From: an uncultured Acidimicrobiales bacterium
GTDB taxonomy: Bacteria > Actinomycetota > Acidimicrobiia > Acidimicrobiales > SHLQ01
Reading direction: 5' to 3'
Assembly (NCBI GenBank): GCA_938015295.1
Contig: CALLQB010000027.1
Span: 1 to 47,372, forward strand
Length of the DNA stretch: 47,372 nt
Positions 16,464 through 18,925 of the stretch are shown here, in pieces (the first letter of the stretch is position 1; the number at the start of each line of letters is the position of its first letter). The notes beneath the pieces were generated by a model. It saw only the letters and a list, made by a program, of their open reading frames with translations, was not told the origin of the DNA and did no database searches. A program made the translations under genes and the position numbers.

Positions 16464-16904
16464 TTATTCGTCTTCGATGGCCATGACCTGGTCGACTCGG
16501 CGTTGATGACGCCCGCCTTCAAAAGCGGTCGACAGAAACAAGGTGACGATCTCCTCGGCGAGGCCGACGCCTACCACGCGTGCACCGATCGACAGCACGT
16601 TGGCATCATTGTGTTCGCGCGCCATGCGAGCGGTGTAGAGGCAGTTACAAAGCGCTGCTCGTGCGCCCTTTACCTTGTTGGCCGCCAACTGTTCACCCTG
16701 CCCTGAGCCCCCCATGACGATGCCGAAATCGGCTTCGCCTGATACGGCTAGGCGCGCTGCGCCGGCACAAAACTCGGGGTAGTCGACCGAGTCCGTCGAA
16801 TCGGTCCCGACATCGATAATCTCATGGCCCGCTGCTTTAAGAAAAGTAACGAGGTGTGACTTGAGTTCATAACCTGCATGGTCTGATCCGAGTGAAATTT
16901 TCAC
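16464..16904 (-). CDS. rpiB: Ribose-5-phosphate isomerase B
   Basis: A 146-residue RpiB, which interconverts ribose 5-phosphate and ribulose 5-phosphate in the pentose phosphate pathway. Visible are SDHAGYELK near the N-terminus (phosphate and ring-opening residues), GGSGQGEQLAANK, and ARMAREHNDANVL. The cysteine base of the E. coli enzyme is absent; the Mycobacterium-type GGSGxGEQ with Glu at residue 71 is present, so it should use Glu as the base. It starts with GTG 2 nt after the stop of the peroxiredoxin gene and is the last gene of that operon, ending at a strong terminator hairpin. Confidence 0.96.
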   Translation of the reverse strand: MKISLGSDHAGYELKSHLVTFLKAAGHEIIDVGTDSTDSVDYPEFCAGAARLAVSGEADFGIVMGGSGQGEQLAANKVKGARAALCNCLYTARMAREHNDANVLSIGARVVGVGLAEEIVTLFLSTAFEGGRHQRRVDQVMAIEDE

Positions 16905-16906
16905 GG

Positions 16907-17362
16907 CTAGCGGTTGTTTCGTTTCGCCAACGCAGCAAGGGCCTTGTCGGCGTGGTCGGTCATCGAGGTTTCGCTCGACACCGCTTCCAGCACTGTTGCA
17001 TCGGTATCGATGACAAAGGTCGCACGCTTGCTCGGCAAGGGTCCCATGCGTTTTACACCGAACTGCTTGGCGATACTTCGGTCGCCATCGGACAACAGCG
17101 GAAAGCCGAGGGTATTGGTCGTATCGAATTCCTTCTGCCGACTCACCGAGTCAGCGCTGATTCCCACTCGCTGTGCGTCGAATTCACCGAATTCAGACGC
17201 CAGATCACGAAAATGACAGCTTTCCTTCGTTCAACCAGGGGTCATGGCCTTCGGGTAAAAGAACAGGACAACTGGTCCGACCTCGAGCAAGCTCGACAGC
17301 GACACCATGTCACCGTTCTGGTCGGGCGCTGAGAACTCAGCGACCTTGTCTCCAACATGCAT
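16907..17362 (-). CDS. bcp: BCP-type peroxiredoxin, probable selenoprotein (in-frame TGA read as selenocysteine)
   Basis: Read from the ATG at 17362, which has GGAGGA 5 nt upstream, the frame runs 151 codons to a TAG at 16907 with one internal TGA at codon 44 (bases 17231-17233). The residues around it read FYPKAMTPG-TGA-TKESCHFRD. In bacterioferritin comigratory proteins the same block is YPKxxTPGCT..AC..RD, so the TGA stands exactly where the peroxidatic cysteine belongs. The resolving cysteine five residues later is kept. Both halves are fully conserved in sequence and length (E. coli BCP is 156 residues), which argues against a decayed gene. A hairpin can form just after the TGA. It would reduce hydroperoxides. 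It lies between acyl-CoA synthetase and rpiB genes in one operon. A single sequencing error (TGC or TGT to TGA) is the main alternative. Confidence 0.85.
17207..17230 (-). promoter_or_regulatory. Candidate bacterial SECIS hairpin after the selenocysteine codon
   Basis: Directly after the in-frame TGA, the minus-strand RNA can pair ACGAAGG with UUUUCGU (five Watson-Crick and two G-U pairs) around a 10-nt loop AAAGCUGUCA. A competing inner pairing of GAAA with UUUC leaves the loop GCUGUCAU. Both put a G and U in the apical loop, as SelB needs. The loop is rather close to the UGA compared with E. coli fdhF, so this is a candidate only. Confidence 0.45.
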
Positions 17363-17389
17363 GTAGATCCTCCGTAGATGGTCGCGACG

Positions 17390-18925
17390 TTAGTTCACGG
17401 CCCGCTCGAGACCTTCCCAATACGGCTCGCGAAGCTTGAATTTCTGGAGCTTGCCCGTTGCGGTTCGGGCGAGCTCGTCGCGAATTTCGACCGACTTTGG
17501 GCACTTGTAGTGGGCCAAACGGCCGCGGCAGTGCTCGATGAGCTCGTCTGGCGTCACCGTTGAGCCTTCGGCGAGCACAACGAGCCCGGTGACGGCTTCG
17601 CCCCACTTCTCGTCGGGCACGCCAATGACCGCCGCTTCGGTCACGTCAGGATGCGAAAAGAGTGCGTCCTCAACCTCGATTGACGAAACGTTCTCTCCGC
17701 CCGAGATGATGACGTCTTTTTTCCGGTCAGAAATTACTGCGTAGTTGTCTTCGTCGATGATGCCGCCGTCGCCAGTATGAAACCAGCCACCTTCGAGCGC
17801 CTGTGCTGTTGCGTCTGGCTGAGCCCAGTAACTCTTGAGCACCACATTGCTCTGGGCGAGTAGTTCGCCAGATTGGCTTACCTTCATCCGCACACCAAGT
17901 GCCGGAGCGCCGGCACGGCTCAACTTCTGGGCACGCTCCTCAACCGGAAGGTCGTCCCACTCTGCCCGACAACGACTCATCGTCAAGAGCGGTGACGTTT
18001 CGGTCAGGCCGTAGATCTGGATGAACTCCCAGCCCAGTTCTTCTTCACAGCGTTGGATGGTGATAGTCGGCGGGGGAGCGCCGGCGCAGATGATACGGAC
18101 TTTGTCTTTGCCCGGAATCTCGCCATCCCAGTCGGCTGCGGCATCGAGGATCGTTGCGAGCACCGCAGGTGCAGCACACATAAAGGTCACGCCATGTTGC
18201 TCGATACGTCGAAGAATTTCGGGGCCGTCGATCTTGCGTAGCACGATCTGTTTCGCACCCATGCCTGCGACGGCGAAGGGCATGCCCCAACCGTTGCAGT
18301 GAAACATCGGCAGCGTGTGGAGGTAAACGTCGCGATCGCTAACACCTGCTTGCCACCCGAATGTGGCTGCGTTGATCCACAGGTTGCGGTGGGTCATCTC
18401 GACGCCCTTAGGGCGCGCCGTGGTGCCGCTGGTGTAGTTGATCGTCGCAGTGCCGTTCTCGTTCCAATCCCAGTCGGTGGGCTCGGTATCGAAGTCGAAC
18501 AAGGCGTCCTCGTCGGCCGAGCCGATTTCGACCACTCGCGTATTCTGCAGGTCGCCCAAGGTGTCCATCAGCTCTGGATCGACAAGGGTTATCTCGGCAC
18601 CAGAATGGTCGATGATGTACTGCACTTCGACCACGTTCAGACGGAAATTCACTGGCACACCTACCCGGCCCCAGCCGGGGACGCCGTAAAGAAACACCAG
18701 CATGCGAGCGGCGTTCTGCGACACGATCGCCACCCGCCCGCCATGAGCGATTCCCTGCTTCTCAAGCCCGGCGGCCAGCGCCTTGCCGCGCCGGAGCACT
18801 TCGGAATACGTGAGATCTGCGAGCGCTGCAGCGGGTTGGTCGGGTTCATCGACGATGCCGATCCGGTCGCCATACACCAATGCGGCTCGTTCGATGTGGT
18901 CACGTACGGTGAGCGCTACTTCCAT
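17390..18925 (-). CDS. Acyl-CoA synthetase (fatty-acid-CoA ligase type)
   Basis: A 511-residue AMP-forming ligase with YTSGTTARPKGV (P-loop), YGLTETSP (A5), FHTGDGG (A7), SDRKKDVIISGGENVSS (A8) and the catalytic lysine in TATGKLQK (A10). The YGLTE and ISGGENVSS motifs are those of medium/long-chain FadD and the related AMP-binding group. It is the first gene of a minus-strand operon with the peroxiredoxin (27-nt gap) and rpiB. It differs clearly from the ligase at 12333 and should act on a different acid. Confidence 0.94.
   Translation of the reverse strand: MEVALTVRDHIERAALVYGDRIGIVDEPDQPAAALADLTYSEVLRRGKALAAGLEKQGIAHGGRVAIVSQNAARMLVFLYGVPGWGRVGVPVNFRLNVVEVQYIIDHSGAEITLVDPELMDTLGDLQNTRVVEIGSADEDALFDFDTEPTDWDWNENGTATINYTSGTTARPKGVEMTHRNLWINAATFGWQAGVSDRDVYLHTLPMFHCNGWGMPFAVAGMGAKQIVLRKIDGPEILRRIEQHGVTFMCAAPAVLATILDAAADWDGEIPGKDKVRIICAGAPPPTITIQRCEEELGWEFIQIYGLTETSPLLTMSRCRAEWDDLPVEERAQKLSRAGAPALGVRMKVSQSGELLAQSNVVLKSYWAQPDATAQALEGGWFHTGDGGIIDEDNYAVISDRKKDVIISGGENVSSIEVEDALFSHPDVTEAAVIGVPDEKWGEAVTGLVVLAEGSTVTPDELIEHCRGRLAHYKCPKSVEIRDELARTATGKLQKFKLREPYWEGLERAVN

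Follow-up and report, generated by a model that had tools for sequence, protein, structure and literature searches.

Peroxiredoxins of the Bcp type (COG1225) with selenocysteine (Sec) in a TxxU motif are a known family of bacterial selenoproteins (PMC9312934, PMC1088965). A total of 43 sequences of this kind are given for the Sargasso Sea set (PMC1088965) and 78 organisms for a 2016 survey (PMC5029168). The published model of the bacterial SECIS element (bSECIS) places 16-37 nt between the UGA and the apical loop, according to the legend of Fig. 2 of PMC13188914, and the same review states that some bSECIS elements break the model. The locus described here lies on a contig of 47,372 nt (the window, contig C27) from an uncultured Acidimicrobiales bacterium. 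It holds a bcp/prxQ gene in which codon 44 is TGA, and from its sequence we predict, with high confidence, that this codon is translated as Sec and not as a stop. Given that Sec peroxiredoxins of COG1225 are already known, the gene would be a new member of a known family. It is like the surveyed members in its BCP type, in having Sec predicted at the peroxidatic position and in its T-x-x-U motif. The group to which it belongs is marked by its Acidimicrobiia lineage, by a predicted SECIS outside the published spacing and by some orthologues that are Cys-free in the aligned region, traits that may set it apart. The first-pass annotation of this DNA had already proposed the Sec reading, noting that Sec at the peroxidatic position is documented for some peroxiredoxins, and the TxxU family of the surveys agrees with that remark (PMC9312934, PMC1088965, PMC5029168). 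In the open-licence literature we found nothing that joins Acidimicrobi*, selenoprotein and selenocysteine, and we do not claim that the lineage is unreported.

The features of the locus are collected in Table 1. The context of codon 44 is YPKAMTPG-U-TKESC, and the motif PxxxT(P/S)xC, which we take to be the BCP/PrxQ motif that holds the peroxidatic residue, is present as P37-KAM-T41-PG-U44 with the TGA in place of Cys. A resolving Cys five residues past the peroxidatic one is presumably the trait of atypical 2-Cys BCP/PrxQ proteins, and Cys49 stands at this distance. Both positions had been assigned on first pass, and they hold when the product is aligned with M. tuberculosis BcpB (PDB 5epf), in which the two Cys of CTKEAC line up with the TGA and with Cys49, in that order. 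With the TGA read as Cys, Pfam AhpC-TSA (PF00578) aligns over residues 3-124, with the TGA inside the match (E 5.2e-34, 117 bits against a cut-off of 26), and an AlphaFold model of the product (pLDDT 88.8) has the BCP fold. The best PDB match of the model by Foldseek is 5epf (TM 0.92), followed by Bcp1 and other BCP/PrxQ entries. Thus, M. tuberculosis BcpB shares with the window product its fold, the TPGC motif and the second Cys five residues on, and differs from it in having Cys where TGA is found here. Model confidence is lowest in the block of residues 41-50 (mean 62). A locally unfolded conformation of PrxQ exists, as the title of 4gqf states, and we assume that it involves the same loop.

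Two narrower profiles do not reach their cut-offs. The NCBIfam equivalog for thioredoxin-dependent thiol peroxidase, NF006960 (PRK09437), scores 102.7 bits against 140, and the gene is therefore not filed under it. NF040737 (peroxi_PrxU), a profile of 233 positions, scores 31.2 bits against 270. This profile presumably represents the type of E. acidaminophilum PrxU, the Sec peroxiredoxin that Sohling reportedly described in 2001; the window product is likewise a peroxiredoxin, but at only 31 bits it belongs to another peroxiredoxin branch. The genomic marks of a Sec peroxiredoxin, namely an in-frame UGA at the cysteine of TxxC, homologues with Cys at that position and Sec machinery in the organism, are found for this gene.

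Table 1. Positions of the bcp locus in the window, and handles of the related sets of frames
Feature	Position or handle	Strand	Basis
bcp/prxQ peroxiredoxin gene, TGA at codon 44, stop TAG	16907..17362	-	sequence, Pfam, PDB alignment, structure model
In-frame TGA codon 44, predicted Sec codon at peroxidatic Cys position (T41-P-G-U44)	17231..17233	-	alignment to PDB 5epf, relatives
Codon 49 (TGT), putative resolving Cys, U-x4-C spacing	17216..17218	-	sequence, 5epf alignment
SECIS-like hairpin, +11 to +75 past TGA, 65 nt	17156..17220	-	RNAalifold, single folds, pair counts, shuffles
Apical triloop GGU of hairpin, 42 nt after TGA	17186..17188	-	folding
GGAGGA ribosome-binding-like site, 5 nt before ATG	17368..17373	-	sequence
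rpiB-like isomerase gene (PF02502)	16464..16904	-	GTG start 2 nt past bcp stop
AMP-binding (acyl-CoA synthetase type) gene, directly upstream, 27 nt gap	17390..18925	-	sequence, Pfam
TGA forms of bcp that are Cys-free in the aligned region	L044, L058, L093, L114, L144, L150, L153, L155, L174, L176
TGA-bearing frames of the source genome	L217, L218, L219, L221, L224, L225, L226, L017, L232-L243 (contigs C77, C76, C24, C133, C60, C3, C89, C39, C12, C129, C59, C74)

Direct reading of the sequence confirms the frame as first described, an intact run of 151 codons on the minus strand (17362-16907) from ATG to TAG with a single in-frame TGA at codon 44, and also the good ribosome site that had been noted before it. 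The first ATG, GTG or TTG 3' of the TGA is the GTG of codon 66, so that a standard gene caller would keep 86 residues, which is the C-terminal fragment that the first-pass annotation had expected a pipeline to report. Its further expectation that annotation misses the gene fits the protein databases, where the best 120 of 7995 protein hits are at most 71% identical and include no close Sec relative, against TGA-form orthologues at 79-84% identity present in genomes; this is a fit and no proof of absence. A mechanical scan of the window found 70 frames interrupted by one TGA each (the 60 largest were listed), with bcp among them. The bcp and rpiB-like genes are probably on one transcript. A conserved neighbourhood was considered and rejected: rpiB and the AMP-binding gene are each found in the same orientation within 1.5 kb at only 4 of 46 TGA loci, including the window's own (L018), and in none of 45 Cys loci, indicating that the gene arrangement is local.

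We compared codon 44 across relatives of the gene, taken from a search of the bcp product in 297 genomes of the order and from named GTDB contigs (80 of 174 kept). The genome search contributed 110 places (30 + 80) in 109 genomes. Eight matches at E 1.0e-37 or better (G193, G207, G082, G157, G097, G074, G142 and G154), with no stop inside, were left out, as were weaker matches (E 2.8e-32 or worse), one of which, in G282, has a TGA; the distant rows L128 and L129 were kept in the Cys counts. Named records place the TGA and Cys relatives in Acidimicrobiales/Acidimicrobiia. Counted over 190 loci (with duplicates), codon 44 reads TGA 77 times, TGC 98 times and TGT 15 times, which is the alternation in related Acidimicrobiia genes that the first-pass annotation had proposed looking for, at exactly this codon. 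Removal of duplicates left 66 distinct TGA forms (the window's included) and 98 Cys forms. The Sec/Cys tree needs seven changes, three of them forced by starred branches, and its resolution is too poor to separate gain from loss.

These relatives bear on two simpler explanations. The window is a contig of an environmental MAG, and an error in sequencing or assembly could have turned TGC or TGT into TGA in a normal Cys peroxiredoxin gene; one changed base would be enough. However, 66 distinct genes from many assemblies share a TGA at this codon, and the two forms differ in more than this codon: codon choice diverges at further positions that include codons 42, 43, 47, 49, 50, 59, 60, 65 and 67, a T immediately precedes codon 44 in 54 of 66 TGA forms and in 24 of 98 Cys forms, and a hairpin described below is also linked to the TGA form. 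We consider the chance of such an error negligible. TGA is a stop in the standard code, and the gene could instead be dead, or could end at a genuine stop to give a 43-residue peptide and the fragment started at GTG codon 66. Yet all 77 internal stops before residue 148 in the 190 aligned loci are TGA at codon 44, with no TAA, TAG or second TGA in that part, and the other stops of the aligned part fall only at residues 148-150. In comparisons with six relatives, dN/dS ranges from 0.06 to 0.22 for the part 3' of the TGA and from 0.10 to 0.31 for the part 5' of it (rough values, with dS above 1 in several pairs), suggesting that both halves are under purifying selection. Since the TGA genomes also keep Sec machinery, a pseudogene or true stop is very improbable.

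The source assembly (5.01 Mb, 140 contigs, 94.7% complete, 2.2% contamination) contains all four genes, selA, selB, selC (tRNA-Sec) and selD, whose presence in the same genome had been put forward as a check of the Sec reading. The tRNA-Sec scores 71.3 bits and is called by ARAGORN as tRNA-SeC with anticodon tca; selA (400 bits) and selB (296 bits) are adjacent genes, and selD (370 bits) has a TGA of its own in GAGUGC. These genes lie on contigs C110, C34 and C74 and not on C27, so their co-membership with bcp rests on binning. The TGA form occurs together with tRNA-Sec and selA in three congeners as well (G077, G219 and G277). SelB (L009, 1495-3204) matches TIGR00475 only over residues 3-354 of 569, leaving its C-terminal part unmatched. 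In E. coli SelB, the C-terminal part reads the SECIS, and the unmatched part here may go with the unusual hairpin described below.

Searches of the 297 genomes detected tRNA-Sec in 175 of them (all above cut-off, with E 1e-9 or better) and, at E 1e-40 or better, selA in 178, with 174 of these above cut-off. We crossed the machinery with codon 44 for the 109 genomes in which this codon was read. The 34 TGA-form genomes comprise 32 with both tRNA-Sec and selA, one with selA only and one with neither; the 75 Cys-form genomes comprise 29 with both, 3 with selA only, 1 with the tRNA only and 42 with neither. At least one of tRNA-Sec and selA is thus present in 33 of the 34 genomes with the TGA form and in 33 of the 75 with the Cys form (Fisher p 2.7e-8, not corrected for relatedness). 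In the TGA genomes G071, where selA is present, and G170, no tRNA-Sec above cut-off was found even by a more permissive search. G170 (L022), which has a TGA-form bcp and in which neither tRNA-Sec nor selA was found, is a MAG that is 83% complete and in 520 contigs.

Read-through at a fixed site would conserve the frame in the same way if UGA were decoded as an ordinary amino acid, either by a near-cognate tRNA for Trp or Cys or through genome-wide recoding, with no Sec involved. Against this, tRNA-SeC(tca), selA, selB and selD are present, the TGAs of the AhpC-TSA frames in this genome fall at catalytic Cys positions, and such frames carry TGA in 0 of 28 cases in three genomes without detected tRNA-Sec and selA. 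We therefore give this possibility hardly any weight. Sequencing error, pseudogene and general TGA read-through are all rejected on the relatives, the dN/dS values and the Sec machinery, and translation of the UGA as Sec, as first proposed, is supported by the intact frame, the alternation at codon 44, tRNA-Sec with selA, selB and selD, and the hairpin in TGA forms. The first-pass annotation was silent on this hairpin and on the further TGA-at-Cys frames of the genome.

A short SECIS directly after the UGA was tried first and rejected, as RNAalifold gave no consensus for the 48 nt made up of the UGA and the next 45 nt, in either TGA or Cys forms. Over codons 42-72, RNAalifold predicted helices for the TGA forms but not for the Cys forms. 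Five members folded singly, the window copy included, each gave one long hairpin from +11 to +75, with stems at +11-14/72-75, +17-24/64-71, +28-31/57-60 and +34-42/46-54. The 25 named pairs of this hairpin are formed in 82.4% of cells in the 66 TGA forms, and in 64.9% of cells in a Cys control (the first 66 of the 98 Cys rows, 65 of them distinct). When the partner strand is slid by 1-3 columns, pairing drops to 35-45% in TGA forms and 34-45% in Cys forms. In synonymous-codon shuffles, the mean z of the minimum free energy is -2.13 for the 66 TGA forms versus -0.21 for the 98 Cys forms (Mann-Whitney p 4e-18), and the mean z of the named-pair count is 2.33 versus 0.74. The TGA forms thus keep the hairpin beyond what coding would lead one to expect, with at most a weak excess in the Cys forms. 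The Cys forms also lean weakly toward the named pairs (43% above z 1) and score higher than their own shuffles for covariation, so that this measure cannot decide the matter by itself. Cys forms nested among Sec forms showed no remnant hairpin as a group, the mean pair z being 0.52 for the 11 nested forms versus 0.76 for the other 87.

The hairpin could be a by-product of coding in what is still a selenoprotein gene, with a shorter or different element recruiting SelB. The energy of the window copy is unexceptional on its own (-24.4 kcal/mol, z -1.40, with 16 of 200 dinucleotide shuffles as good), codon pairs like GAG-TTC/GAA-CTC arise readily in coding sequence, and nearly two-thirds of the pairs are kept in Cys forms, as given above. 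However, when only uninterrupted stems are allowed, the best hairpin of the window copy at the textbook distance has +1.2 kcal/mol, and a textbook hairpin at -7.5 kcal/mol or below is found in only 3 of 66 TGA forms (15 of 98 Cys forms). The synonymous shuffles also favour the long hairpin in TGA forms; for the window copy itself, 6 of 60 such shuffles are as low in energy and 0 of 60 reach its named-pair count. On balance, we judge a coding by-product unlikely, and favour the long hairpin as the insertion signal.

The element is similar to the consensus bSECIS (PMC13188914) in being a hairpin in the coding region past the UGA, with a small apical loop and, in the window copy, G as the first loop base. 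Its energy as a whole lies below the consensus threshold of -7.5 kcal/mol, which the stem of the triloop alone, at -3.2, does not reach. It differs from the consensus in its spacing of 42 nt in the window copy, outside the 16-37 nt range, and in that a G in the first two loop positions, present in the GGU of the window copy, is found in 48 of 66 TGA forms. Rfam, SECIS included, gave no family match in 17000-17400 at E 1 or lower. The hairpin is likely a bSECIS variant outside the published model, with an unusually long insertion signal. Given that the review admits model-breaking elements (PMC13188914), it would be an instance of such a class and no contradiction of it. The published model would miss the window bcp.

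Translation and catalysis might then proceed as follows. SelB carrying Sec-tRNA would bind the hairpin and deliver Sec at the UGA. The selenolate of Sec44, kept in place by the PxxxT motif, would react with the peroxide to give a selenenic acid, which Cys49 would resolve to a selenenylsulfide, and this would be reduced in turn by a thioredoxin-like reductant. Attack by the residue at position 44 and resolution by Cys49 follow the known chemistry of the BCP/PrxQ family. Codon 49 encodes Cys in 56 of 66 TGA forms and in 98 of 98 Cys forms. In the ten remaining TGA forms (Table 1), position 49 is K, R, N, A or G, and the 147 aligned residues contain no Cys at all. The tree requires five changes to account for this loss of the resolving Cys. 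Sec and this loss give only three independent pairs on starred branches, a low-power comparison without significance, so that Sec-linked loss of the resolving Cys stays a lead. The 66 TGA and 98 Cys forms amount to a natural experiment on the exchange of Sec and Cys, and on whether a resolving Cys becomes less necessary once Sec is present. A second peroxiredoxin of the source genome, L236 (G000:C77:3869-4252), reads TPG-U-TMQGQGF, which has a predicted Sec and lacks a resolving-position Cys.

The source genome has other frames of this kind. Including bcp, 11 of its 19 AhpC-TSA frames have one TGA inside the match, and by context (TPGU, UxxC or UGC) these TGAs are at the expected catalytic position. 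One of the 11, on C129, is below the Pfam cut-off and runs off the contig, and two of the TGA frames of the genome have an extra TGA upstream of the likely start, which was disregarded. An FdhA-like frame (645 bits, just below the cut-off of 666) and the SelD frame likewise have TGA at the catalytic position by context. Thus, twelve genes beyond bcp (ten of AhpC-TSA type, the FdhA-like one and SelD) are likely selenoprotein candidates too, for a predicted 13 in all. Six or more selenoproteins count as selenoprotein-rich in PMC5029168, and with 13 candidates the source genome would be so classed.

We counted by hand the AhpC-TSA frames with TGA in 11 genomes, having checked the TGA positions in the source genome and searched for the machinery in all but G297 and G298. 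The shares are 11 of 19 in the source genome (G000), 13 of 20 in G077, 11 of 18 in G219, 6 of 15 in G277, 8 of 16 in G113, 7 of 17 in G004, 3 of 6 in G297 and 3 of 10 in G298. They are 0 of 6 in G001, 0 of 14 in G002 and 0 of 8 in G003, genomes in which no tRNA-Sec or selA was found.

The source genome also encodes a COX1-type oxidase (517 bits), and the organism therefore probably respires oxygen. In earlier work, selenoprotein-rich bacteria are mostly anaerobic (78.3%) and Sec users in general occur in aerobic and anaerobic settings alike (PMC5029168), aerobic bacteria seldom retain selenoproteins according to a 2026 review (PMC13188914), and Actinobacteria were counted as selenoprotein-rich in 2006 through Symbiobacterium (PMC1794560). 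A genome of an actinobacterial order with both this oxidase and 13 selenoprotein candidates is a testable counter-case to the mostly anaerobic pattern. The wider selenoproteome of the lineage is a more surprising lead than the new bcp member or the SECIS variant. We tentatively suggest that a group within the Acidimicrobiia, whose oxidase genes point to oxygen respiration, may run much of its peroxide and disulfide chemistry on Sec (13 candidates in one genome), may read bcp through a distinct class of long SECIS (loop 42 nt from the UGA) to which a diverged SelB tail binds, and may in some of its lineages have dispensed with the resolving Cys, giving Sec-only peroxiredoxins recycled by an outside thiol; taken together, this picture is plausible and still somewhat doubtful.

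The TGA form was also seen, at 62-70% identity, in MAGs named as Myxococcota or Deltaproteobacteria (L054, L055, L059, L069, L077, L079, L080, L084, L091, L093 and L108). These rows form one weakly supported group (SH-aLRT 83) together with one Cys row, L056, and transfer between phyla or a binning error are both possible. Finally, the bcp sequences from two records labelled Bifidobacterium breve (L098, L100) and one labelled Actinomyces sp. (L101) group with Acidimicrobiia rows, and these record titles look wrong.
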